A stretch of DNA of 10,384 nt from positions 1-10,384 of the forward strand of contig DQLO01000371.1 of assembly GCA_015660155.1 (NCBI GenBank). The letters are read 5' to 3'. The stretch's first letter is position 1; every line of letters starts with the position of its first letter. A model generated the notes under the pieces. That model did not search any database and was not told the origin of the DNA. It was given only the letters and a program-made list of their open reading frames with translations. Below, in pieces: positions 1 to 10,384 of this stretch. Source of the stretch: Verrucomicrobiota bacterium (GTDB lineage Bacteria > Verrucomicrobiota > Verrucomicrobiia > Limisphaerales > UBA1100). The position numbers and the translations under genes were made by a program.

Positions 1-1413
1 GGCGTTGCGGAGTTGTTTGGCGGTGGGAGCGTAATAGATGTATCCGTTCGTGTAGCCGGCGATGAATGTGTGGTCGTGCGGGGATGCCTTTTTGATGTTG
101 AGGCCAATCTGCACGGTTAACTCGCCGGGAAAAGTGACCATCACAAACTCGCCCACGCGCAGGCCGGCGACTTCGACCTCAATGGTTTTGTTGCCGGAAC
201 CGTACCCGTTTTTCTGGTGCTTCTTCAGCAACCGCAGGTTGGTGTTGATGCGGGTGATTTGTTCCATCGCGTGAATGTTGCGAACATAAGCGCGGAGGTT
301 GGCGCGGTTGGTGGCGTCCAATTTATCCAAACCGGCGCGGCCCATTTTGCGCTCGTGCAGGTAGCGATAGGAATTGAGCGAAGGAAAATCAGGCGAGAGA
401 TTGTACTTCACCGTGAGCGGCAAAAACGTTTTCAAGTTGAGGAACGTGCCCTTCAATGAACCGACCGATTTCTCGCGCTCGGTTTCCATCGCGGCAATGC
501 GCTTGGCGTGGTCGGCGCGGGGGAGTTTAAGCTTTTCGCTGTGAACGACCAAGGGCTGGCCGGGTTGGCTTTTGATTTTCCGAACGGCGCGCAGCGTACT
601 CAGCCCGAGCATGAGACCGAGAGGCTCGGCGCTGCGGAGATGGTTGACGGCTTTGTAGTTGATGGGGTTGATGTCGCCGCCGCAGCCCTGCACAAAAAGC
701 GCGATGCAATCCTTGCCCAGATTTTCCTCGATGGTCTTTGACGAAAAACCGGTGATGTCGGCGGTGTTGCCGCCGCTGGGAACGTTTTGAATGGGATGAC
801 AGGCAAAGTTGTAAACGATGGCCAGCGGTTTGCCATCGAGGCGGTCGAGGCGCAGCACTCCAATTTCTGTGTCCACAGGACCAACGGCGGCGACCAATTC
901 ATCGGGCGGCAGCGAGTAAGCGTGGCGCACGTCCACCACTTTGCCGCTCTTCAAAACGAGCCGCCGGTTTTCCATAATGCGCGTCTCGCGCCCCACGCCC
1001 GCGCCGGCCTTCACGGGCACGAGATTTTTCACAGCCGCTTTCACCGCCTGCACGGTGCGCGCCTCCACATCCGGATGCACGAGGCCGTGGCAGTGGCTGG
1101 CATTGAAAATGGTGTGGGCGGGCGGGATGCCCAGTTCCGCGAGCAGCTTCGCGCGGACGTTTGGCAAAAAGTCATCCTTGATGCGCCCGATCTCGCCGAT
1201 GGCCACGGCATCGAGGGTAACGAGCACGGCGGTGGTGTCGCCGCTTTTCAATACCAACGCCCGCGCGTAAAGGCGGTCGTTGACTGGCCCGCGCTCGTCG
1301 GTGATGTCCACCTTGGCGGCACCCGCCATCAGGGCGGCGGCGTTGGCATTCCCGGCAATCAGAAAACCGATGCACAGGGCGAGAAACCGTGAGGGCGAAA
1401 CGAGGGAGCGCAT
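1..1413 (-). CDS. Exported neutral ceramidase-family (PF04734-like) metal-dependent hydrolase, C-terminus cut off by window edge
   Basis: An open frame of 471 codons runs from an ATG at 1413 to the left edge with no stop, so the C-terminus is missing. Residues 1-26 form a signal peptide (basic start, LALCIGFLIA core, cleavage likely near ANA-AA), so the enzyme is probably periplasmic or secreted. Family landmarks appear in the right order: SHCHG (106-110), NFACHP (202-207), GCGGDINP (243-250), FPGE (428-431) and GYTNGYIYYAPT (453-464). By eye these supply the Zn ligands known from Pseudomonas ceramidase: H107 or H109, H206, E431 and a Tyr near 458-461. The family's GDVSPN motif reads GDINPI here, with Asn249 in place of the catalytic Ser, so ceramide N-acyl hydrolysis is not assured. 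It lies 57 bp downstream of the ECF sigma gene on the same strand. The start is chosen for its signal peptide; no Shine-Dalgarno is visible. Fold family is confident; substrate is not. Confidence 0.85.
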   Translation of the reverse strand, partial: MRSLVSPSRFLALCIGFLIAGNANAAALMAGAAKVDITDERGPVNDRLYARALVLKSGDTTAVLVTLDAVAIGEIGRIKDDFLPNVRAKLLAELGIPPAHTIFNASHCHGLVHPDVEARTVQAVKAAVKNLVPVKAGAGVGRETRIMENRRLVLKSGKVVDVRHAYSLPPDELVAAVGPVDTEIGVLRLDRLDGKPLAIVYNFACHPIQNVPSGGNTADITGFSSKTIEENLGKDCIALFVQGCGGDINPINYKAVNHLRSAEPLGLMLGLSTLRAVRKIKSQPGQPLVVHSEKLKLPRADHAKRIAAMETEREKSVGSLKGTFLNLKTFLPLTVKYNLSPDFPSLNSYRYLHERKMGRAGLDKLDATNRANLRAYVRNIHAMEQITRINTNLRLLKKHQKNGYGSGNKTIEVEVAGLRVGEFVMVTFPGELTVQIGLNIKKASPHDHTFIAGYTNGYIYYAPTAKQLRNA

Positions 1414-1470
1414 GCCGCGAGCGTACCGGCACGAGCGATGGCGTAAAGAGAATTGGTGGGGAAACGCGAG

Positions 1471-2166
1471 CTAAACGGCGATCGGAGCGACTTCCAAATA
1501 GGGTTGCCAGTCGACTTTCGCCGAGGCGATGGCGCGGTTTTCTTTTTCTTGAAGTTGCTTGAGGGCCTCGCGCATTTTGGCTTTGGCGCGATGGCAGCGG
1601 ACTTTTACGGAGTCAACGGATTGACCGGTGAATTCGCTGACCTCTTTGAGACTGCGCCCTTCGATCTCGCGCTGGGTGAGGATCACGCGGCTGAGAGGGG
1701 TGAGGGCTTGCATGGCGTATTCGAGCAGTTGGCGCGCTTCGCTAACCTTGAGTTGGCGGTTGATGTTGCCGGTGCTGAGCCAATCGATGGAGCCTTCGCC
1801 CAAATCCTCGAAGCTGGTTTCGCGGATGCGGCGCTGGATGCGGCGCAGATGATCGCGCGCCACATTGCTGGCAATGCGGGAAAGCCAATGCTCGAAGGGC
1901 GACTTGGCGCGGTACTGTTTCAAATTGCGCCACGCTTTTAGAAAGGTGTCTTGCGCGAGATCCTCCACCTTGTGCGCATCGCGCTCGTAATGAGTCAGAA
2001 TTCCGAACACCCGATTTTTATAACGGGCCACCAAAATCTCGAAGGCCTCCGGCTCGCCGTTGCGAATGCGGCGAAGGATCGCGGCGTCGGTTTCGATCGA
2101 TTCGTTTTCCTCATTGCGCACCGCGCAATCGGCCATTCCCACCATCATCGTGCTCATTGTGCTCAT
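1471..2166 (-). CDS. ECF-type RNA polymerase sigma factor (sigma-70 family, RpoE-like)
   Basis: The 231-residue product has the two-domain layout of an ECF sigma factor. Region 2 spans about 38-110: EAFEILVARYKNRVFGI, then the core-binding stretch EDLAQDTFLKAWRNL (68-82) and the -10-recognition helix HWLSRIASNVARDHLRR (93-109). Region 4 spans about 150-204: LTPLSRVILTQREIEGRSL, then the helix-turn-helix TGQSVDSVKVRCHRAKAKM that contacts the -35 element. It would direct RNA polymerase to a specific promoter set. No anti-sigma gene is visible on either side: the next gene on this strand is the ceramidase-like gene 57 bp downstream, and upstream is a divergent two-component system. A tail of about 25 residues follows region 4 and is too short for a receptor domain. 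The ATG at 2166 is chosen because GAAGGGA lies 7 nt upstream; in-frame ATGs at codons 4, 7, 8 and 11 are alternatives. Confidence 0.93.
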   Translation of the reverse strand: MSTMSTMMVGMADCAVRNEENESIETDAAILRRIRNGEPEAFEILVARYKNRVFGILTHYERDAHKVEDLAQDTFLKAWRNLKQYRAKSPFEHWLSRIASNVARDHLRRIQRRIRETSFEDLGEGSIDWLSTGNINRQLKVSEARQLLEYAMQALTPLSRVILTQREIEGRSLKEVSEFTGQSVDSVKVRCHRAKAKMREALKQLQEKENRAIASAKVDWQPYLEVAPIAV

Positions 2167-2173
2167 CGTTTTT

Positions 2174-2180
2174 TCCCTTC
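2174..2180 (-). promoter_or_regulatory. Ribosome binding site for the ECF sigma gene
   Basis: The minus strand reads GAAGGGA, then 7 nt, then the ATG at 2166. It is a fair Shine-Dalgarno match and favours the first ATG over the four further in-frame ATGs within the next ten codons. Confidence 0.5.
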
Positions 2181-2187
2181 AATTGAG

Positions 2188-2216
2188 TTGGATGCATCGC
2201 ATCTGCTTGATATATT
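2188..2216 (+). promoter_or_regulatory. Candidate sigma-70-type promoter for the two-component operon
   Basis: TTGGAT (2188-2193), a 17-nt spacer and TATATT (2211-2216) form a plausible plus-strand promoter. The -10 matches 5 of 6 consensus bases and is preceded by TGA, giving an extended -10 (TGnTATATT). The -35 matches only 3 of 6. Transcription would begin near 2223 and leave a leader of about 115 nt before the response-regulator ATG. The GTAAA repeats would then lie downstream of the start site, a position suited to negative autoregulation. Confidence 0.3.
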
Positions 2217-2234
2217 AGACCCGCTGGATGTAAA
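2209..2234 (-). promoter_or_regulatory. Weak candidate promoter for the ECF sigma gene
   Basis: On the minus strand TTTACA (2234-2229, 5 of 6 to the -35 consensus) is followed by the AT-rich stretch TAATATATC (2217-2209). The spacing is poor: 11 nt to TAATAT or 14 nt to TATATC, shorter than the usual 16-18. It could be a housekeeping promoter helped by an activator, an ECF-type promoter read differently, or chance. One GTAAA half-site (2230-2234) overlaps the -35 hexamer. Confidence 0.22.
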
Positions 2235-2244
2235 GGGGTTGTGT

Positions 2245-2321
2245 GAACGGGGCCTAAAAATTGTAAAATGTTGTAAAGTTCAGGGAAAAAATGAGTGAAA
2301 ACGGGTAAGCTATCCCCGTTC
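2245..2321. repeat. Inverted repeat GAACGGGG / CCCCGTTC in the leader of the two-component operon
   Basis: GAACGGGG (2245-2252) and CCCCGTTC (2314-2321) are perfect 8-bp inverted complements flanking the GTAAA repeats. A second left arm, AACGGG (2300-2305), pairs with CCCGTT (2315-2320) across a 9-nt loop. One right arm can therefore pair with either of two left arms. That could form alternative leader hairpins or mark operator half-sites; function is not established. Confidence 0.3.
2263..2277 (+). promoter_or_regulatory. CpxR-box-like direct repeat GTAAA-N5-GTAAA, putative response-regulator operator
   Basis: The sequence is TTGTAAAATG TTGTAAAGTT (2261-2280): two copies of TTGTAAA exactly 10 bp apart, containing GTAAA-N5-GTAAA. 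This matches the consensus known for enterobacterial CpxR and has the helical spacing typical of OmpR-family dimers. A third GTAAA sits at 2230-2234, 33 bp upstream, roughly on the same helix face. The region is shared by a CpxR-like regulator gene and a divergent sigma factor gene. That the adjacent regulator binds here is inferred. Confidence 0.45.
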
Positions 2322-2337
2322 GCAAAAGCAAAGTGCC

Positions 2338-3093
2338 ATGAGTCAAGCAATGAACATACAGCCCGAAGCCGCTGTGCCGGGATCTCCCTCGGTGGCCACG
2401 CCGATTATCATCATTGATGATGACCCGAAGCTGTGCGAGTTGATTCGCGATTACCTCGCGCCGCTGGGATACGATGTGGCCTCGGCCAACACCGGCCCGG
2501 AGGGATTGGAGAAAGTGCTCAACGGCGATTACCGCGCGGTGATTCTGGATGTGATGCTGCCGGGCATGGACGGCTTTGAAGTGCTCAAGGCCATCCGCCA
2601 CCAATCCAATGTGCCGGTGCTGATGCTCACCGGGCGCGGCGATGAGGCCGACCGCGTGGTGGGGCTGGAGATCGGCGCGGATGATTATTTGCCCAAAACA
2701 TTTTCCACGCGCGAATTGTTAGCGCGGCTGCGCGCGGTGATGCGGCGGGCCAAACCCAAAGCCGGCGCGGAACACGGGCCAGAGGTTGAAGCGGACCTCA
2801 CCAATGGCAATCTTATTATTTCGCCCGGCTCACGCACCGCCGTGCTGGGCGATGTGCCGCTGAAACTGACCTCGCTGGAATTCGATCTGTTACTGAGCCT
2901 CACGCGCGCGCGCGGACGAGTGCGGTCGCGCGAACAAATTCTCGATGACGTGGCCGGACGCGATTACGATGTGTTCGACCGGTCGATCGATGTCCACGTG
3001 AGCGCCCTGCGCCAGAAACTGGGCGATGATCCCAAGGCACCCACCTTCATCCAAACCGTCCGGTCGGTCGGGTACATGATGATCAAGCAATGA
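2338..3093 (+). CDS. OmpR/CpxR-family two-component response regulator (receiver plus winged-helix DNA-binding domain)
   Basis: The 251-residue protein has a receiver domain (about 22-138) and an OmpR-type winged helix (about 148-249). The receiver keeps the acidic cluster D27-D29, the phospho-acceptor D71 in ILDVMLPGMDG, T98 in LMLTGR and K120. The stretch DRVVGLEIGADDYLPK and the wing-domain stretch FDRSIDVHVSALRQKLGD resemble CpxR and its near relatives. The usually conserved Pro after K120 is Thr (PKTF rather than PKPF). About 20 residues precede the receiver, unusual for this family; an in-frame ATG at 2350 would shorten this tail. No strong Shine-Dalgarno is seen at either start. The kinase gene follows 7 bp after the stop, so the two are co-transcribed and almost certainly partners. 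The upstream GTAAA-N5-GTAAA site suggests autoregulation. It is not called cpxR because orthology cannot be shown here. Confidence 0.93.
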   Translation: MSQAMNIQPEAAVPGSPSVATPIIIIDDDPKLCELIRDYLAPLGYDVASANTGPEGLEKVLNGDYRAVILDVMLPGMDGFEVLKAIRHQSNVPVLMLTGRGDEADRVVGLEIGADDYLPKTFSTRELLARLRAVMRRAKPKAGAEHGPEVEADLTNGNLIISPGSRTAVLGDVPLKLTSLEFDLLLSLTRARGRVRSREQILDDVAGRDYDVFDRSIDVHVSALRQKLGDDPKAPTFIQTVRSVGYMMIKQ

Positions 3094-3100
3094 ATTGACA

Positions 3101-5053
3101 ATGAACATCCGCGGCACACTTTTCACCAAAATACTCGCCTGGTTCTTTTTGAACCTGCTGCTGATTGGCGCAATGATCTGGGCGGTCTACGAATTCCAAA
3201 TCGGACCCGGCTCGCCATTCGTTGGCCCATCGGAGCAACGGGTGCGACAAGTGGCTCAAGTCATCTCCGATGGGCTCACCAACCGGCTGCGCGAGGATTG
3301 GGCAGGCGAGCTGAGAAAGTTTTCTGAAATCTACAAAGTGGATTTTCATCTGGTGGGGATCGACGGCCAATCGCTGGTGGATGATTCCCTGAAAATCCCC
3401 AACGAGGTTCGCGAAAAAATCGCCAACCTTCCGCGCCCCAGACCGCCCCGTGAACGGCCCCCAACCTTGGCCGAGCAACTCCAGTTGAATGAGGAACAGC
3501 GCGAGAAATACTCCACTGTCAGGCTCGAGCGCGATCAGGCTTTCCGCAGCATGTGGACCAACTCCGCCCTGCGGGAATTGCCCCGGGAAGAACGCATCGT
3601 CCAGTCGCGCGAGTTGCTCAGTAAAATAATGCAGGACTATCGGAATCAAATGGATGAGTTGCTCAATGAAGAGCAACGCAAAAAATATGAGGAGATTGTC
3701 CAGCGCGGAACCCGGGGCAGCCTTCCTTTCAGCCGACGGCGGATCCCCTTCAGGCCCGAACAAATCACAGAAATAATGACCGAGGCCGACACCAACAAAG
3801 ACAAACAGTTGAGCAAAGCTGAATTGGAAACTTGGCTGCGGCAGCGCGGCAACGCAGGCCCGCCCAACCGCCCAGGACGAGGCGGTGGCAACGAATCCAG
3901 ACCAGCACAAAATGGCGGCAATCCTCCGCCGAACCGTATTCCCACTTCCCCCACCGCGGTTTTTATGATCAAAACGGACAAGCCCCAAGCGCGGTATTGG
4001 GCGGGAGTGGATATTCCCGTGGTAGTTCAGGCCGAGGGAAGCGAAGAACTCCCCAGCGAAAACCTCCTCGGACTGCGCCGGGTTCAACGAGGGCCAAACC
4101 AAGCCCACTACTTTGCCACACTTGTTACCGTGTCCGACACGATGAGCGGCGCTGGTCTCTTTTCCGATCCATTGCGATGGGTGAATATCCTCATCTTGGC
4201 CACGGTGCTTTCAGTGCTTTTCTGGTTGCCGATGGTGCGCAACATCACCCAGCCCATCGCCAAGATCACCGCCGCCACAGAACAAATTGCGGAGGGAAAT
4301 TTCGACACGCGGGTCGGCACCTCGCGCACCGACGAAATCGGCCGCGTGGGACAGGCCGTCGATCACATGGCCGAGCGGCTGGATGGTTTTGTGAAGGGCC
4401 AGCGGCGGTTTCTCGGCGACATCTCGCACGAGCTGTGTTCCCCCATCGCGCGCATTCAAGTTGCCTTGGGCATCCTCGATCAACGCGCGGATGATCAGCA
4501 AAAAAAATACGTTGCGGATGTGCAGGACGAAGTGGAGCACATGTCCGAGCTGGTCAACGAGTTGCTGCTTTTTTCGCAGGAAGGCGTGAAGCCCAAGTCC
4601 ATTGAACTGGAACCGGTGAACCTCCGCGAAATCATCGACCGCGTAATGGAACGGGAAGGCGCCAAAAATTCCACGGTGAAAATTTCGGTCAACAAGGAGA
4701 TTTCGGTGAACGCCAACGCGCAGCGTTTGTCGCTCGCGCTCGGCAACCTCCTCCGCAACGCCATCCAATACGCCGGCGACGCCGGCCCCATCAACGTGAG
4801 CGCCGAGCGTGAAAACGAATCACTGATCCTCCTCATCACCGACAGCGGCCCGGGCTTGCCCGAGGAAAGTTTGCCCAAGATTTTCGACCCCTTTTACCGG
4901 CCAGAACTCGCCCGCAACCGAGCCACCGGCGGCGCGGGCCTCGGCTTGGCCATCGTCAAAACCTGCGTCGAAGCCTGCCGCGGAACAGTCACCTGCCGAA
5001 ACCGCAAGCCCTCCGGCCTCGAGTTCAAAATCGTGCTGGAAAGTTCCGGCTAA
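3101..5053 (+). CDS. CpxA-like membrane sensor histidine kinase with a periplasmic Spy/CpxP-like and EF-hand sensor region
   Basis: Numbered from the ATG at 3101 (650 residues). TM1 is about 10-30, a large periplasmic region 31-357, TM2 about 358-376, HAMP about 377-430 (with DEIG at 411-414). The dimerisation/phospho-acceptor box is RFLGDISHELCSP with H443. The HATPase domain has N-box LGNLLRNAIQYA (547-558), G1 DSGPGLP (581-587), FDPFYR (595-600) and G2 GGAGLGLAIVK (610-620), so all kinase motifs are intact. The H-box resembles CpxA, but the usual Arg after HEL is Cys. The periplasmic part holds two LNEEQ motifs (129-133, 188-192) in charged helices, an EF-hand loop (230-241) and a Pro/Gly/Asn-rich linker (251-284). 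CpxA kinases usually have a much smaller periplasmic domain, about 130 residues. A TTG at 3095 could add two residues; ATG is preferred. The ligand is inferred: misfolded envelope protein and/or calcium. Confidence 0.94.
   Translation: MNIRGTLFTKILAWFFLNLLLIGAMIWAVYEFQIGPGSPFVGPSEQRVRQVAQVISDGLTNRLREDWAGELRKFSEIYKVDFHLVGIDGQSLVDDSLKIPNEVREKIANLPRPRPPRERPPTLAEQLQLNEEQREKYSTVRLERDQAFRSMWTNSALRELPREERIVQSRELLSKIMQDYRNQMDELLNEEQRKKYEEIVQRGTRGSLPFSRRRIPFRPEQITEIMTEADTNKDKQLSKAELETWLRQRGNAGPPNRPGRGGGNESRPAQNGGNPPPNRIPTSPTAVFMIKTDKPQARYWAGVDIPVVVQAEGSEELPSENLLGLRRVQRGPNQAHYFATLVTVSDTMSGAGLFSDPLRWVNILILATVLSVLFWLPMVRNITQPIAKITAATEQIAEGNFDTRVGTSRTDEIGRVGQAVDHMAERLDGFVKGQRRFLGDISHELCSPIARIQVALGILDQRADDQQKKYVADVQDEVEHMSELVNELLLFSQEGVKPKSIELEPVNLREIIDRVMEREGAKNSTVKISVNKEISVNANAQRLSLALGNLLRNAIQYAGDAGPINVSAERENESLILLITDSGPGLPEESLPKIFDPFYRPELARNRATGGAGLGLAIVKTCVEACRGTVTCRNRKPSGLEFKIVLESSG
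3485..3688 (+). other. Spy/CpxP-like (LTxxQ-type) helical segment inside the sensor kinase
   Basis: Residues 129-196 of the kinase begin with LNEEQREKY and end with LNEEQRKKY, 59 residues apart. Between them lie amphipathic charged helices, including RLERDQAFRSMW and SRELLSKIMQDYRNQMDELL. Paired LTxxQ motifs with this kind of spacing are the signature of the Spy/CpxP periplasmic chaperone family. CpxP is known to bind and restrain CpxA. The similarity is motif-level, so domain assignment is moderate. Confidence 0.55.
3788..3823 (+). other. Canonical EF-hand calcium-binding loop in the periplasmic domain of the sensor kinase
   Basis: Residues 230-241 read DTNKDKQLSKAE. This gives the EF-hand ligands D1, N3, D5, backbone at Q7, S9 and bidentate E12, with hydrophobic L at position 8. 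Helices flank it (EQITEIMTEA before, ELETWLRQRG after). Position 6 is Lys instead of the usual Gly, which is tolerated in some EF-hands. Only one EF-hand is visible, so calcium binding may be weak or need dimerisation. Confidence 0.75.
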
Positions 5054-5061
5054 AAACCCAC

Positions 5062-5916
5062 TTAAAGATCGAGTAATTCATCCATTAGTGCCGCCGTCTT
5101 GTCGTCGCCACCGTCGCTGCCCTCGCGCGTGACCCAGCCGGAGAAGCCGATTTTCTTTAACTCCGCCCGCACCTTGTCCCACTCCACATCGCCCTGGCCG
5201 AGCGGGCAGAACCCGTTTTTCTTGCCCCAATCCTTCACGTCCAGTTTCACATTGCGGTTGCCGAGAACGCGAATCCATTCGTGGCTGGGCGCGAACTTTT
5301 GCATGTTGCCAATGTCATAATACGCCTGCACCCATGGATTGTTAATTTCATCTATATAGTCGCGGAACTGCACCGGCTTGTAGCAAAAACCATTCCAAAC
5401 CGTTTCGATAAGCACATGAATGCCCAGCTTGCTCGCCAGCGGGATGACCTTGCGAATTTCCGTGATGGACCGTTCCCAAACCTGCTCATGCGTCTCGTTC
5501 GGCCCACTCACGCGCCCCGGCACCAGCAGCACCGACGAACCGCCCACCGCCTTCGACTCGCGAATCGCCGCCTCCAGCCCCGTGCGCCCCTCGTCGCGCG
5601 TAGCCTTGTCCGGCGAGGACAGCCGCTTTTGCCAATGCTTATTATAAACCACCCCGTGCATCGGCAGCTCCACCTCCGCGCACGCCTTGCGCAGCCCAGC
5701 GATATCCATCCCCGGCGCGCTTCCCTCGATGCCGTCAAAACCCAATTCCTTGAGCCGCTTCATCCGCTTCAAATTCGCCCGCCCGCCAAATTTAGTGGAC
5801 TTAAAAATCAACCCCTTGTTCGCCCGCTCACGTTTCTTGTCAGCCGCTTCGAGTTGCGAGGTGGCCATCACTGCCGCAGCGGCCCCGGTGGATTGAATAA
5901 AAGTGCGTCGGTTCAT
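5062..5916 (-). CDS. Tat-exported sugar phosphate isomerase/epimerase-like TIM-barrel protein (PF01261 family)
   Basis: The 284-residue product starts MNRRTFIQSTGAAAAVMATS, a twin-arginine-type signal, so it is probably exported folded, perhaps with metal bound. The rest fits a xylose-isomerase-like TIM barrel: strand/helix repeats such as LKELGFDGIEG (56-65), SSVLLVPG (127-134), GIHVLIETVW (165-174), AYYDIGN (198-204), NVKLDVKDW (222-230) and GFSGWVTREG (257-266). By eye E171, D201 and E265 match the metal-binding acids of tagatose-epimerase-type enzymes. The usual third-ligand His falls at D226, so the site is not classic. It is the last gene of the minus-strand run, 52 bp after the DUF1552 gene, and ends 8 bp from the convergent kinase stop. 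A short hairpin abuts the start codon and no Shine-Dalgarno is seen. Substrate is unknown; such exported paralogues are common in PVC bacteria. Confidence 0.88.
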   Translation of the reverse strand: MNRRTFIQSTGAAAAVMATSQLEAADKKRERANKGLIFKSTKFGGRANLKRMKRLKELGFDGIEGSAPGMDIAGLRKACAEVELPMHGVVYNKHWQKRLSSPDKATRDEGRTGLEAAIRESKAVGGSSVLLVPGRVSGPNETHEQVWERSITEIRKVIPLASKLGIHVLIETVWNGFCYKPVQFRDYIDEINNPWVQAYYDIGNMQKFAPSHEWIRVLGNRNVKLDVKDWGKKNGFCPLGQGDVEWDKVRAELKKIGFSGWVTREGSDGGDDKTAALMDELLDL

Positions 5917-5933
5917 GCGCCGAGGCTAGGCGC
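5917..5933 (-). promoter_or_regulatory. Short hairpin directly before the TIM-barrel start codon
   Basis: GCGCC, a 7-nt loop and GGCGC form a perfect 5-bp stem whose 3' arm touches the ATG in the mRNA, where a ribosome binding site would be expected. It could damp initiation or make it depend on ribosomes arriving from the DUF1552 gene. A short GC-rich stem may also be chance. Confidence 0.25.
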
Positions 5934-5968
5934 GTGGCGGAGATTGGGCAAATAAAATCCTACGTAAT

Positions 5969-7270
5969 CTACACCTCATCCAACGGCGCAGCCGCATCGC
6001 CGAAGGTTTTTGGGCGGACATTCATCTTGTCCATCATGCTGATGAACAGTCGGCTCATTTGGCGGTTGGGTTTGCCGAGATAATTCAGGTTCTGCCCGCC
6101 TTTGATTCGGCCGCCGCCGCCGCCGAGCATGACGACCGGAAGCTGCGTGGCGTCGTGATGGCCGGTGAGCATGCTGGAGCAGAGCATGAGCATGGTGTTA
6201 TCCAGCGCGGTGCGGTTGCCTTCTTGGATGGCGTCGAGACGGCGCGCGATGTAGGCCATTTGCTCGAGGAAAAACTGGTTCACCTTCAGCCAGTCGTTGG
6301 TGTCGTTGTGGGAGAGCAGATGGTGAATCATGTAATCCACGTTGAGGTGCGGGAAGCGCAGGGTGCCGTGGTCGTTGTTGAGCTTGAGGGTGCACACGCG
6401 CGTGGTGTCGGTCTGGAACGCGAGCACGAGGATGTCGCTCATCAGCCGCATGTGCTCCACGATGTCTTGCGGATAGCCGTCCTTCGGGCGGGGCATATTG
6501 GGCTTGGCGAGCGTCGGCCGCCAGCCCTGCAACTCGCCGCGTTGGCCGGCGCTTTCGATGCGCTGCTCCACCTCGCGCACGGAATTTAAATACTCGTCGA
6601 GCTTTTGCTGGTCGAGCTGGCTGATGTTGCGGCGCAAATCTTTCGCGTCGCCGAGTACCGCATCGAGCACGCTTTGGTCGCCCGCCTGTGCCTTGTTTTT
6701 GAATAACCGATCAAACGCCAGCGCCGGGTAAACCTCCAGCGGCGTGGGCGAGTTCGGGCTGCTCCACGAAATGTGTGAACTGTACAGCAGCGAATAATTC
6801 TTGTGCACGCCGGGATTGGATTTTTCGCAACCGAGCACCAAGCTCGGCACCTTCGTCTGCCGGCCAATGCGTTGTGCCACGTACTGGTCTACGCTGGTGC
6901 CGGACGAAATCCGACCGCCCGAGGCCAACGGCGCGCCCGAAAGCAGATTCCCCGTCTGCGAACTGTGAATGTTCCCCTTCAGCGCCTCCTTATTATAAAG
7001 CCCGCGAATGAAAACCATCTTGTCGCGAAACTCATTCAACGGCGCGAGCACCTTGCCCAGCTCCATCGCCTTGCCCTCACCCTTCGCCCACCATTCACTT
7101 TTGTGATAACCGCAACCCGAAAACAAAATCGCCATCCGCACCGGCGCCTCGCTCGCCTTCTTCGCGCCCTTCGCCACATCGCCCCACACGCGCAAGCTCT
7201 CCATCCAAGGCAACGCCATCGTCACCCCCAAGCCGCGCAACATCGTCCGTCGTGTGATTTCGTGTTTCAT
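5969..7270 (-). CDS. DUF1552 family protein with Tat-like N-terminus
   Basis: The 433-residue protein begins with TRRTMLRGLGVTMALPWMESL, a twin-arginine-like motif and hydrophobic stretch, so export is likely. It matches the family across its length: FSGCGYHKSEWWAKGEG (50-66), FIRGLYNKEA (87-96), SGAPLASGGRISSGTSVDQ (111-129), HISWSSPNSPTPLEVYPALAFDRLF (166-190), HMRLMSDILVLAFQTDTTRV (273-292), LDNTMLMLCSSMLTGHHD (356-373) and LPVVMLGGGGGRIKGG (377-392). The family is widespread in Planctomycetes and Verrucomicrobia, has no established biochemical role and commonly lies next to DUF1592/DUF1588 cytochrome genes, as here. It starts 45 bp after the cytochrome-like gene with a good GGAG site and precedes the TIM-barrel gene by 52 bp. 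Length is typical and no disruption is seen. Several His/Asp-rich stretches (NNDHG, DYMIHH, SHNDTND, GHHD) could bind metal; that is inference. Confidence 0.93.
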   Translation of the reverse strand: MKHEITRRTMLRGLGVTMALPWMESLRVWGDVAKGAKKASEAPVRMAILFSGCGYHKSEWWAKGEGKAMELGKVLAPLNEFRDKMVFIRGLYNKEALKGNIHSSQTGNLLSGAPLASGGRISSGTSVDQYVAQRIGRQTKVPSLVLGCEKSNPGVHKNYSLLYSSHISWSSPNSPTPLEVYPALAFDRLFKNKAQAGDQSVLDAVLGDAKDLRRNISQLDQQKLDEYLNSVREVEQRIESAGQRGELQGWRPTLAKPNMPRPKDGYPQDIVEHMRLMSDILVLAFQTDTTRVCTLKLNNDHGTLRFPHLNVDYMIHHLLSHNDTNDWLKVNQFFLEQMAYIARRLDAIQEGNRTALDNTMLMLCSSMLTGHHDATQLPVVMLGGGGGRIKGGQNLNYLGKPNRQMSRLFISMMDKMNVRPKTFGDAAAPLDEV

Positions 7271-7274
7271 AATT

Positions 7275-7278
7275 CTCC
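7275..7278 (-). promoter_or_regulatory. Ribosome binding site for the DUF1552 gene
   Basis: The minus strand reads TTGGAGAATT followed by the ATG at 7270, so GGAG lies 4 nt upstream. It is the clearest Shine-Dalgarno in the window and confirms that start. Confidence 0.6.
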
Positions 7279-7315
7279 AATCGCTGTCTTTAGACTAAAC
7301 TCGTTCCGATTTATT

Positions 7316-10300
7316 TCAATCAACTTTTGCCGAGCCCACACCACGAATATTCCGAAACTGATCGCTCGTCACAATCGCCTCCACCGCCACGCTGAAGCGG
7401 TAGCCGTTCTTCGCCAACCGCTTTTGCATGTCCGCCAGAAACGGCTCATCCGAAAGCTGCACCTCACGGCCCAGCGCGTAGCCGAGCAGCTTTTTGCAAA
7501 ACTGCCGCACCACCGCATCGCGCCGGTCATTCAGCAAATACCGCCGCAACCCGTCCATGCCCTCGATGGATTTGCCGTCGACCAATTTCGTTTTTGTGTC
7601 CACCGGCTTCGCGCGCAGACGGCCGATGGCATCGTACTGTTCCAGCGCGAATCCGTACGGGTCAATCCGCGCGTGGCACTTCGCGCACGCCGCCACGCTG
7701 CTGTGCTTTTCAATCAACTGCCGCGCCGTCAAACCCGCCGGCACACTCTCGGGCAACTGCGGCACATTCGCCGGCGGCTTGGGCAACCGCTCGCCGAGCA
7801 GCGTTCCCGAAACCCAATTGCCGCGCAAAATTGGGCTCGTGCGCGAGGCTCCCGATTGCTTCGCCAACACCGTCGCCATCCCGAGAATACCACCGCGCCC
7901 CTTCGCCCGCGCGCCTTCCACGCGCCGCCAATCGCTGCCGTTCACGCCGCCGATGCCGTAGTGTTTCGCCAGCGATTCGTTTAAAAAAGTGTGATCCGCA
8001 TTCAGCAAATCAAGAATCGACCCGTCGTTGCGAAACATGTCCTCGAAAAACCGCACCGATTCTTCGTACATCGCGCCGCGCAGTTTTTTGAATTCTGGAT
8101 ACAGCTTTTCATTCTTCCCATCGTCCGTGTCGAACTCCCGAATCCCCAGCCATTGGCACGCAAACTCCACCGCCAACCGCCGCGTGCGCCCATCGCGCAA
8201 CATCCGTCGCGCCTGTTCCGACACCAATTTGTCGCCGACCGGAATCTTACCGCTCAACGCGCGCTGCAACTCCGCGTCGGGCATCGACGACCACAGGAAA
8301 TAACTAAGCCGATTGCCCAGCTCACGATTCGTCACCGGCGCGGCCTTCGCCCCCGCCGCCGGCTTTTCCAGCCGATACAAAAACGCCGGCGAGGTCAGCA
8401 CCCGCGCCAGCGTCAACCGAATCGCCCGTTCATGCGGTAACTCCTTTTTGCGCAGCGTTTCGTACAGCCCGCGCATTTCCTTCTTTTCCGTTTCCGCCAA
8501 GGGCCGCCGCCACGCGCGCTCGGCCAAATCCAAAACCGCCGCCAAGTGAATCGGCTCGGTCTTTTTCAAACGCGCGCGAAACTTCTCCGCATCCTTCCGA
8601 ATCGGCACGCGCAATGCCTCCAGCGGCGACAGCAAATCTTCCCGGTCTTGCGTGGCGAATTCGTGAAGCTGCTCGTGGCTCACCACTCGCAGCAACGGCT
8701 CCCGCGCCACAAAAAACAGTTCATCCCACAACCGATCCAGCCGCGCCGCCTCGGCCTCGCTGAGCATCAACCGCGCAAGCGCTGCGTCCTCGCGATGATA
8801 GAGAATCATCGTCACCACCTCGTCCACCGGCACAATTTGCGCGTGGCACATCGCCGCCGGAAACAGCTCACGAAAATCCGCGTACGATTTTTCCACGCGC
8901 GCCATGCCGGCCTTGCCCTCCACCGCGACGATGGGCTGGCCCGCCATCGCCTTGGCGTCCGGCCGCGTGAGAGAGACCAAAAATTGCGCCGTGCCCTCCT
9001 GCCCCTTTCGCGGATGCAACATGCCGGTCACCGCCACTTCCGCGCCGGCCGCAAGTGCAGCGGGCAACTTGAATTCCAAAACCAACGGCGCGGTTGCCTC
9101 AATGTCCGCCGCCGCAAATTTGCCGGTCGCAAGCGCCAGCCATTTCAGCGGGCCGTTGGATTCGTTGAATTTTGCCGCCAACGCCTTGTCCGCGTTGGTG
9201 GCGGGCAACCGCTCCACGCCCAGCACGCGGTGCACCGCTCGCGCGTGTTTTTCAATTTCCGCCATCGGCTTTTTGCCTGCCACCGCCGCGCGCCAATGTG
9301 CCAGCGCGGAGCCGGGCGGGATGACGTTTTGCGCCGGCTTGGCCTCAGCCGATTCCCCAAAGTGCCAAACGGCCGCGTTGCCAAAAGTATCGGCGAGCGG
9401 ATTGCTGTCGTGGATGCGGTCGACCACTTCCTTCGCCAAATCCCACACGCGTTTTTTGCCGGCCTGCTCGGTGATGGTCAGCGAAACTTGTGTGGTGTCG
9501 CACACGTGCGAGCGGTCGCGCGCGTTCACCACGAGCTTGAGCAAGTCACCCGGCTGAATCACAAACTCCTGCTTCGGCGCAAACGCACCGCGCTTGCCAT
9601 TATCAAAAACGCCACGCGCAATCGTGTCCGCCCCCGCGCGCCCAATCAACTCCACGCGCCACGCCGCACCGTTGCCGCACACGGCATCGGAGTCCGCAAA
9701 AAATCCCGCGAGGCGAACCTTCCCCGCCAGCGGACTCTGCCACCAAATGATGGCCTCCTTCGTCGGCGAGGGATGCACGTTCACGCTGCGGCCCGGCACC
9801 ACGAGCGTTGCAAAACGGCGGGTCTCCTTTGACCCGTTCGCCATCATGCTCGGCGTGGCCGGCACACCCCAGCCACGGATGTCCGCGTAGCCGCCGATGT
9901 TGGAAATCATTTTTGTGAAGTGCCCCTTCACTACCGGCTGGGCGAACCGACCCAACTGCACCGCCGCCGCCCAGTTCGCCAGCAACCGCGCATCCAGCCC
10001 GCGCCCTTTCGCCGCGACCTCGATTGACTTGCCGCCCGCGTGCGCCTCGGCGATGACGTTTAAATACCGCCTCGTCCGGCGGCGTTCGTTCAGCTTCAAC
10101 AAAGCAATGCGCGGGCCCAATCCATTCACGGCGCCCAGCGATATTGGCGGCTGACCGGCAATCACCAAACGCGGGTTGCTCCACAGCACCGCGTCGCCGT
10201 CAGCGCCATCGCCCGCCCCGCCCGCGGCGAGGAACACGCTGATTTCACCCTTCGCATCCTTCGGCAGTTTCAGCCGAAACTCGCGCCGCTCCGCCAGCGG

Positions 10301-10384
10301 CGTCACCGGATTCATCCACGCCTTCGACCGCCCTTCGCGACCGATTTGCCCCACTGCATCAAATTTCCAAAGCTTGTCCTGCCA
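7316..10384 (-). CDS. Planctomycete-type c-type cytochrome-like protein (DUF1595-DUF1592-DUF1588-DUF1585), N-terminus beyond window
   Basis: The frame is open to the right edge (it enters reading WQDKLWKFDA) and gives at least 1022 residues, so the true start lies outside; a GTG at 10354 is internal. The C-terminal half has the PVC module in standard order: DUF1595 about 8540-8360 (AERAWRRPL), DUF1592 about 8340-7950 (YFLWSSMPDAEL to HTFLNESLAKHYGI), DUF1588 about 7905-7610 (GILGMATVLAKQSGASRTSP to one heme motif CAKCH) and DUF1585 about 7560-7330 (LLGYALGRE). Before these, about 8885-8650 carries FRELFPAAMCHAQIVPVDE and LDRLWDELFFVAREPL. The part from 10384 to about 9475 is beta-rich and includes VHPSPTKEAIIWWQSP and CDTTQVSLTI, resembling a ligand-binding sandwich of unknown function. 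A signal peptide and N-terminal heme domain may lie beyond the edge. The DUF1552 gene follows by 45 bp. An exported redox role is expected; the substrate is unknown. Confidence 0.92.
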   Translation of the reverse strand, partial: WQDKLWKFDAVGQIGREGRSKAWMNPVTPLAERREFRLKLPKDAKGEISVFLAAGGAGDGADGDAVLWSNPRLVIAGQPPISLGAVNGLGPRIALLKLNERRRTRRYLNVIAEAHAGGKSIEVAAKGRGLDARLLANWAAAVQLGRFAQPVVKGHFTKMISNIGGYADIRGWGVPATPSMMANGSKETRRFATLVVPGRSVNVHPSPTKEAIIWWQSPLAGKVRLAGFFADSDAVCGNGAAWRVELIGRAGADTIARGVFDNGKRGAFAPKQEFVIQPGDLLKLVVNARDRSHVCDTTQVSLTITEQAGKKRVWDLAKEVVDRIHDSNPLADTFGNAAVWHFGESAEAKPAQNVIPPGSALAHWRAAVAGKKPMAEIEKHARAVHRVLGVERLPATNADKALAAKFNESNGPLKWLALATGKFAAADIEATAPLVLEFKLPAALAAGAEVAVTGMLHPRKGQEGTAQFLVSLTRPDAKAMAGQPIVAVEGKAGMARVEKSYADFRELFPAAMCHAQIVPVDEVVTMILYHREDAALARLMLSEAEAARLDRLWDELFFVAREPLLRVVSHEQLHEFATQDREDLLSPLEALRVPIRKDAEKFRARLKKTEPIHLAAVLDLAERAWRRPLAETEKKEMRGLYETLRKKELPHERAIRLTLARVLTSPAFLYRLEKPAAGAKAAPVTNRELGNRLSYFLWSSMPDAELQRALSGKIPVGDKLVSEQARRMLRDGRTRRLAVEFACQWLGIREFDTDDGKNEKLYPEFKKLRGAMYEESVRFFEDMFRNDGSILDLLNADHTFLNESLAKHYGIGGVNGSDWRRVEGARAKGRGGILGMATVLAKQSGASRTSPILRGNWVSGTLLGERLPKPPANVPQLPESVPAGLTARQLIEKHSSVAACAKCHARIDPYGFALEQYDAIGRLRAKPVDTKTKLVDGKSIEGMDGLRRYLLNDRRDAVVRQFCKKLLGYALGREVQLSDEPFLADMQKRLAKNGYRFSVAVEAIVTSDQFRNIRGVGSAKVD
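7673..7687 (-). other. CxxCH heme c attachment motif in the DUF1588 domain
   Basis: The encoded motif CAKCH, followed by ARIDPYGFALEQYDAIG, is the only CxxCH in the visible protein. It sits where the DUF1588 (PSCyt3) family carries its covalent heme site. Heme attachment implies a periplasmic location. Confidence 0.8.

Follow-up and report, generated by a model that had tools for sequence, protein, structure and literature searches.

A CpxA-like sensor kinase of one verrucomicrobial family with a Spy/CpxP-like module and a single EF-hand predicted inside its sensor domain

Can the accessory regulator of a Cpx-type envelope-stress kinase be part of the kinase chain itself? The question is raised by a gene for a CpxA-like sensor histidine kinase in a 10,384-nucleotide stretch of a Verrucomicrobiota genome (contig DQLO01000371.1, positions 1 to 10,384; hereafter the window). 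The first-pass annotation of this DNA described a CpxP/Spy-like segment and an EF-hand fused into the kinase, and this fusion is borne out by the predicted structure, profile matches, conservation, selection and a CpxR-type box upstream. We read the protein as a Cpx-type envelope-stress kinase whose accessory regulator is built in as a Spy/CpxP-like module plus one EF-hand, and give this reading a probability of roughly 0.6. Computation shows the architecture, as a predicted structure, together with its conservation, its single clade and its occurrence in one family among the genomes searched. The kinase gene and its parts are as follows.

3101..5053, plus strand: CpxA-like sensor histidine kinase, 650 amino acids, starting at ATG 3101, 7 bases past the regulator stop
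3110..3196, plus strand: first membrane helix, residues 4-32 (predicted model)
3221..3430, plus strand: N-terminal half of a PAS-like sensor, residues 41-110 (model; structural matches to the PfeS and AbfS sensors)
3437..3718, plus strand: Spy/CpxP-like helical module, residues 113-206, with predicted helices 131-152, 162-187 and 190-206 (model, structural matches, profile)
3485..3499, plus strand: first LTxxQ-type motif, LNEEQ, residues 129-133 (translation, conservation)
3662..3676, plus strand: second LTxxQ-type motif, LNEEQ, residues 188-192 (translation, conservation)
3755..3850, plus strand: EF-hand helix-loop-helix, residues 219-250 (model, profile)
3788..3823, plus strand: 12-residue EF-hand loop DTNKDKQLSKAE, residues 230-241 (translation, conservation)
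3851..3955, plus strand: Pro/Gly-rich linker, residues 251-285 (low confidence in the model, disordered)
3956..4168, plus strand: C-terminal half of the PAS-like sensor, residues 286-356 (model, structural matches)
4169..4249, plus strand: second membrane helix, residues 357-383 (predicted model)
4232..5038, plus strand: HAMP, HisKA (His443) and HATPase_c domains (Pfam)

The two best NCBIfam models for the kinase were both CpxA (NF007007 and NF045900), with scores of 195.2 and 186.6 bits that lie below the curated cut-offs of 486 and 800 bits. Its top PDB sequence matches were cytoplasmic constructs of CpxA, and His443 was invariant in an alignment of kinase relatives. In the predicted structure the periplasmic part of the kinase is a PAS-like sensor interrupted by an insert at residues ~113-250. 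The segment of about 325 residues that had been noted between the membrane helices does contain the module and the EF-hand, but it also holds this split sensor, which had been overlooked. The Pro/Gly-rich linker is present as described (residues ~251-285), and translation from ATG 3101 places the two LNEEQ motifs exactly 59 residues apart. Within the insert the predicted models show a Spy/CpxP-like module of three helices followed by an EF-hand helix-loop-helix, with modest Z-scores for the structural matches.

Comparison of structural models with VIA-align placed ZraP and Spy at the top of the matches to the module helices, again with modest Z-scores, and CnrX and ZraP/STV chains were also among the best matches. 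Foldseek by itself returned nothing significant for either model; the VIA-align second look alone ranked the Spy, ZraP and CnrX chains high. The CpxA sensor structures 8UK7 and 3V67 (named in the excerpted text of PMC11078701) were absent among the matches listed. In the predicted models the paired LTxxQ-type motifs lie on long helices, as is characteristic of Spy, CpxP, ZraP and CnrX. The window sequence scored 14.9 bits against the Pfam family LTXXQ (PF07813), under the gathering cut-off of 24.3 bits. Relatives were compared in an alignment of 26 rows, composed of the window and the 25 full-length proteins among 30 protein hits, the 5 partial proteins having been dropped; 5 of the 26 matched LTXXQ at E <= 0.1, with a best E of 0.0021. 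Stand-alone LTxxQ proteins were matched by a profile of the module, with per-genome E-values of 3e-11 and 2.3e-14.

The structural likeness to CnrX and ZraP/STV chains would also suit a transition-metal sensor of the CnrX/ZraP type fused to the kinase, and the first-pass annotation had proposed that metal status might be read. CnrX and ZraP bind metal through His/Cys-type ligands. The 140-residue module of the window contains no His or Cys, and across 31 rows any column has His in at most 2 rows and Cys in none, so that the module lacks the conserved ligands of that type. Transition-metal sensing is therefore very unlikely, and the proposal of metal sensing finds no support beyond the EF-hand.

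At the EF-hand, the model and the alignment together place ligands at loop positions 1, 3, 5 and 12 of a helix-loop-helix. The loop had been called canonical, and at positions 1, 3, 5, 9 and 12 its residues are indeed as expected; at position 6, however, Lys replaces Gly. Calcium binding is therefore uncertain, and this weighs against the reading that we prefer. The nearest protein hits of the window (P0002-P0015) have Lys, Asn or Gln at this position, and most of the relatives that are more distant have Gly. The acidic loop ligands are kept in close homologues, with D1 and D5 present in 25 of the 26 rows each and E12 in all 26, as is L8. Even relatives that are ~20% identical in the module keep the EF ligands, several of them in the textbook DxDxDG form. 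Pfam scores for the window are again under the gathering cut-offs (EF-hand_7, 19.3 versus 30 bits; EF-hand_1, 15.4 versus 25.4 bits), and the relative P0024 reached 24.5 bits against a cut-off of 25.9 for EF-hand_5. EF-hand_1 was matched at E <= 0.1 by 21 of 26 relatives, and the EF part of the module profile found calmodulin at E = 6e-10 (whole-chain).

These same residues bear on the strongest alternative, in which the EF-hand is a structural staple with a site that is always filled: it would order the joint between module and linker, and the Spy-like part would be the sole sensor. We regard this as a genuine possibility. It would account for a single EF-hand placed close behind the helices, and for the invariance of E12 and L8 even though the window and P0002-P0015 have Lys, Asn or Gln at position 6. 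An always-filled site would be expected, for example, in sea water, where calcium is ~10 mM; one of the fragment hits carries the label marine metagenome, and the titles of some records point to polar marine samples. The retention of D1 and D5 argues against a mere staple, and EF-hand proteins that recur beside the Cpx genes of outgroup genomes (below) hint at a signalling role. Some bacterial EF-hand proteins bind lanthanides, and this loop might do so instead of binding calcium. Such a specificity is extremely improbable here, as Pro at loop position 2, the lanmodulin-type residue, is absent from the aligned rows, in which T, G, A, Q, I, S or R is found.

Sequence conservation in the insert is concentrated on the motifs. 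Within residues 113-250, 7 of 9 motif-defining positions fell among the 16 columns conserved in at least 90% of the 26 rows (hypergeometric p = 2.2e-6), where the nine positions derive from the motif definitions and were written down after the alignment had been viewed. Twelve divergent modules, that of the window and others 19-83% identical to it, share only 8 invariant columns, all of them in the motifs or no more than two residues away. In window numbering these are L127 (two residues before the first motif), Q133, L188 and Q192 for the LTxxQ-type motifs, and D230, L237 and E241 of the EF loop together with A229 just before it. Ratios of nonsynonymous to synonymous substitution rates (dN/dS) were computed between the window kinase and 5 relatives of its genus. 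They were 0.10-0.14 for the helical module, 0.13-0.37 for the EF-hand, 0.15-0.45 and 0.09-0.19 for the N-terminal (residues 33-112) and C-terminal PAS halves, and 0.09-0.17 for HisKA/HATPase; the linker, at 0.61-1.09, was near neutral. Purifying selection acts on the module and on the kinase core. The scores under Pfam cut-offs could be taken to mean that the motifs arose by chance in a disordered insert, a view to which we give practically no credence: it is already contradicted by motifs that stay conserved in modules as little as 19% identical, by purifying selection next to a near-neutral linker, and by the profile homology to LTxxQ proteins and calmodulin.

How widespread is the architecture? 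The order is probably Limisphaerales, to judge by the name of one close hit and by taxonomy. A search for the module in 293 of its genomes returned 19 places in 16 genomes; 10 of these places are the kinase described here, every one within the window's family, and the other 9 are weak matches in other frames. Genome G009 adds an eleventh family member with a module-bearing kinase. Beyond the window, the same kinase was thus found only in other members of its family among the genomes searched; this statement is based on genome searches, in which the best 10-11 candidates per genome were scored and absence is therefore soft, and the protein hits carry few taxonomic names. In the order's other families, CpxA-like kinases lack the module and have a loop rich in Pro and Gly at the insert site. 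An outgroup set of 73 loci was assembled from 70 of 83 matching genomes plus the named loci L029-L031, with the truncated L032 omitted; the sensor frames of these 73 contained a single LTxxQ-like word and no EF-hand loop (the frame of L112 is without the sensor part). A tree of 92 kinase cores groups the 17 module-bearing kinases that were sampled in a single clade (support 99/98; 200 of 200 bootstrap trees), which is nested among module-free kinases; no nearest relative is singled out. The PAS-like sensor seems to have gained the module in its loop just once. In G004 and G005, two genomes of the same genus as the window, there is a second, divergent copy of the module-bearing kinase (L103 and L104), in which the helical module is shorter and the motifs are unchanged.

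Free relatives of the module were found at the level of the phylum. The module profile matched at E <= 1e-4 in 34 of 387 phylum genomes among the matches listed, a list that lacks most of the other genomes in the window's family. With the exception of the window kinase, every matched frame was at most 430 amino acids long; the matches mostly span the helical part, some slightly more, and that in G345 covers the EF part alone. In the window's genome, contig C405 encodes two adjoining proteins with several LTxxQ motifs (L262, 211-969 and 1139-1870). The first scores 46.3 bits, above the LTXXQ cut-off of 24.3, and the second 22.7 bits, slightly under it; the pair could be free counterparts of the kinase's module. 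A donor of the joined Spy-plus-EF module was not found by the protein search with the module or by the phylum profile search, in which the best 10-11 candidates per genome were scored and absence is again soft. In all, 5 of 214 candidates in the protein search were 140-205 amino acids long with E <= 0.01, and 3 of these are partial or kinase pieces by name or Pfam.

Inspection by eye of further loci in the window's family showed HlyD/LysM-like envelope proteins with a paired-LTxxQ module at the C-terminal end (L134, L135, L137, L141 and L150), so that further envelope proteins also seem to have acquired a Spy-like module by fusion. At L136 (G061), again by eye, a Spy-like stretch is followed in one frame by a C-terminal part resembling di-haem cytochrome c peroxidase. 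Envelope proteins of the HlyD/LysM-like kind would favor another explanation, that the module is a membrane-tethered holdase which protects envelope proteins and leaves signaling unaffected, with the kinase merely its anchor. Spy itself is a holdase chaperone. We consider this explanation unlikely: the insert lies between parts of the PAS-like core, where movement could reach the kinase, and a kinase would probably be present in few copies for a chaperone.

Upstream of the kinase the window has the following features.

1471..2166, minus strand: extracytoplasmic function (ECF) sigma factor gene (Pfam Sigma70_r2 and r4_2), divergent neighbor of the response regulator
2263..2277, plus strand: CpxR-type box GTAAA-N5-GTAAA, GTAAAATGTTGTAAA, in the divergent intergenic region
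2338..3093, plus strand: OmpR/CpxR-type response regulator (Pfam Response_reg and Trans_reg_C)

NCBIfam scores for the response regulator were 199 bits for OmpR, 192 for MtrA and 188 for CpxR, every one under its cut-off. The published CpxR consensus is GTAAA-N4-8-GTAAA (PMC5063474, excerpted text), and the window has exactly this pattern upstream of cpxR. The box is the sole exact match with a spacer of N5-6 in the 2.15-Mb, 73.6%-complete assembly of the window's genome. A scan for repeated 5-mers with no preset word in 71 regions upstream of cpxR, the window included, returned GTAAA as the top word (16 regions), with means of at most 0.4 for every word in shuffled sequences. Neighbor and box counts were made on 68 of the 73 outgroup loci, 3 having no regulator in the stretch and 2 scant upstream DNA. 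GTAAA-N5/6-GTAAA directed toward cpxR was found exactly in 14 of 68 outgroup regions and with at most one mismatch in 62; the corresponding counts in 1113 control tiles were 0 and 3. The word tested had come from the unbiased scan of largely identical regions. All 62 near-match regions read GTWAA-N6-GTAAA. In reversed orientation at one mismatch the counts were 0 of 68 regions and 5 of 1113 tiles. Among 12 other module-bearing loci 7 have the exact box, and L103, L104, L116, L117 and L118 are without it. A looser GTWAA box was less frequent genome-wide than its reversed-pattern control in four genomes (G000, 3 versus 15; G006, 12 versus 25; G041, 16 versus 43; G068, 19 versus 29), and for this reason no regulon is claimed.

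In E. coli, cpxP is divergent from cpxRA. At 31 of the 68 outgroup loci, from 12 families, the slot divergent from cpxR is occupied by a gene for a small Pro/Gly-rich EF-hand protein; the 31 include L230, whose frame of 78 amino acids is doubtful and without which the count is 30 loci in 11 families. The proteins are apparently secreted, to judge by the hydrophobic N-termini of their translations. Two that were checked matched Pfam EF-hand_5 at E = 1.7e-18 and 3.3e-10, and EF-hand loops are ~200 times rarer elsewhere in those outgroup stretches (2 other frames). The box is about as frequent at loci with the divergent EF-hand gene (28 of 31) as at those without it (34 of 37). The remaining loci have, by eye, divergent YHYH-type proteins, Pro/His-rich proteins or other genes; YHYH-like motifs were seen by eye in the proteins of L188, L192, L198, L201, L202, L221, L224 and L226. 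The window differs, in that gene order in relatives shows its ECF sigma factor gene in the slot often held by the EF-hand gene in other members of the order, and its EF-hand is within the kinase. The window's family is generally rich in both elements, with EF-hand proteins in 20 of 20 genomes and LTxxQ proteins in 19 of 20.

We tentatively propose that in the verrucomicrobial Cpx system a secreted, CpxR-controlled, calcium-binding EF-hand protein may take the place of CpxP, and that one family may have built the EF-hand and a Spy-like chaperone into CpxA, giving a single-chain sensor of unfolded protein and calcium. Conservation of the CpxR-type box, together with the EF-hand gene divergent from cpxR, would widen the range of Cpx-like circuits to include Verrucomicrobia, and the two point to a calcium-linked accessory protein. 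Downstream of the kinase, window positions 5062-10354 carry on the minus strand genes for a TIM-barrel protein with a twin-arginine translocation (TAT)-type signal, a DUF1552 protein and a DUF1592/1588/1585 protein (Pfam), a gene set that is frequent in Verrucomicrobiota.

How might the built-in module act? Inhibition of the kinase, binding of client proteins and control by Ca2+ are functions that we infer for it. In the resting state the tethered module would contact the sensor dimer and favor the kinase-off state, and a divalent ion in the EF-hand, most likely Ca2+, would stiffen the module. Binding of unfolded envelope protein, or loss of the ion, would release it. Release would allow autophosphorylation at His443 and activation of the CpxR-like regulator, which may act on its own divergent promoter. 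Client binding and ion occupancy of the EF-hand would thus together set the balance of the PAS dimer between off and on. As the module is covalently joined to the kinase, such a regulator would be constantly present at 1:1, with no titration, separate degradation or feedback increase, unlike E. coli CpxP. A natural one-chain version fixes both stoichiometry and tether length, and so a contact of the CpxP-CpxA type becomes open to direct solving and testing.

Such a contact has been studied in E. coli, where unstressed cells have CpxP bound to CpxA, and salt and the misfolded pilin PapE displace it (PMC4160245, excerpted text). The same excerpts report that CpxP inhibits reconstituted CpxA and that tethered CpxP fused to maltose-binding protein (MBP-CpxP) blocks the full response; they also cite a nuclear magnetic resonance study that detected no contact. 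The way in which CpxP acts on CpxA has been debated. CpxP has been argued to be too scarce to provide one molecule per CpxA or to keep every CpxA off (PMC11078701, in part). A cpxP gene of P. aeruginosa encodes two LTXXQ motifs and lies next to cpxR (PMC5063474, in part). A kinase with a fused LTXXQ/CpxP-like part and an EF-hand was not found in the open-access literature among the matches listed (title and start of abstract), and no full text in the open-access library searched combined histidine kinase, EF-hand and CpxP, or LTXXQ, EF-hand and kinase. The constituent parts are already known; their union in one kinase, and an EF-hand gene at the position of CpxP, did not appear among those matches.

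With the CpxA-CpxP-CpxR systems of enterobacteria and Pseudomonas the window shares the cpxR-cpxA gene order, a CpxR-type box upstream, an LTxxQ-type accessory element and a PAS-like sensor, for which PfeS is the best sensor-domain match. CpxP in those systems is a periplasmic protein of its own, subject to feedback regulation and proteolysis (PMC11078701 and PMC4160245, each in part), whereas the Spy/CpxP-like module of the window sits inside the kinase and is joined to an EF-hand. The long helices, the paired LTxxQ-type motifs and the closest structural chains are shared with Spy, CpxP, ZraP (STV) and CnrX. Members of that superfamily are small free or membrane-anchored proteins; the module of the window differs in being an internal kinase domain with no conserved His or Cys. 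With prokaryotic EF-hand proteins such as EfhP and CaBP, and with the proteins encoded divergent from cpxR, it shares an EF-hand loop in a partly exported protein. Those proteins are free and their EF-hands are mostly paired, whereas the window has one EF-hand within a histidine kinase.
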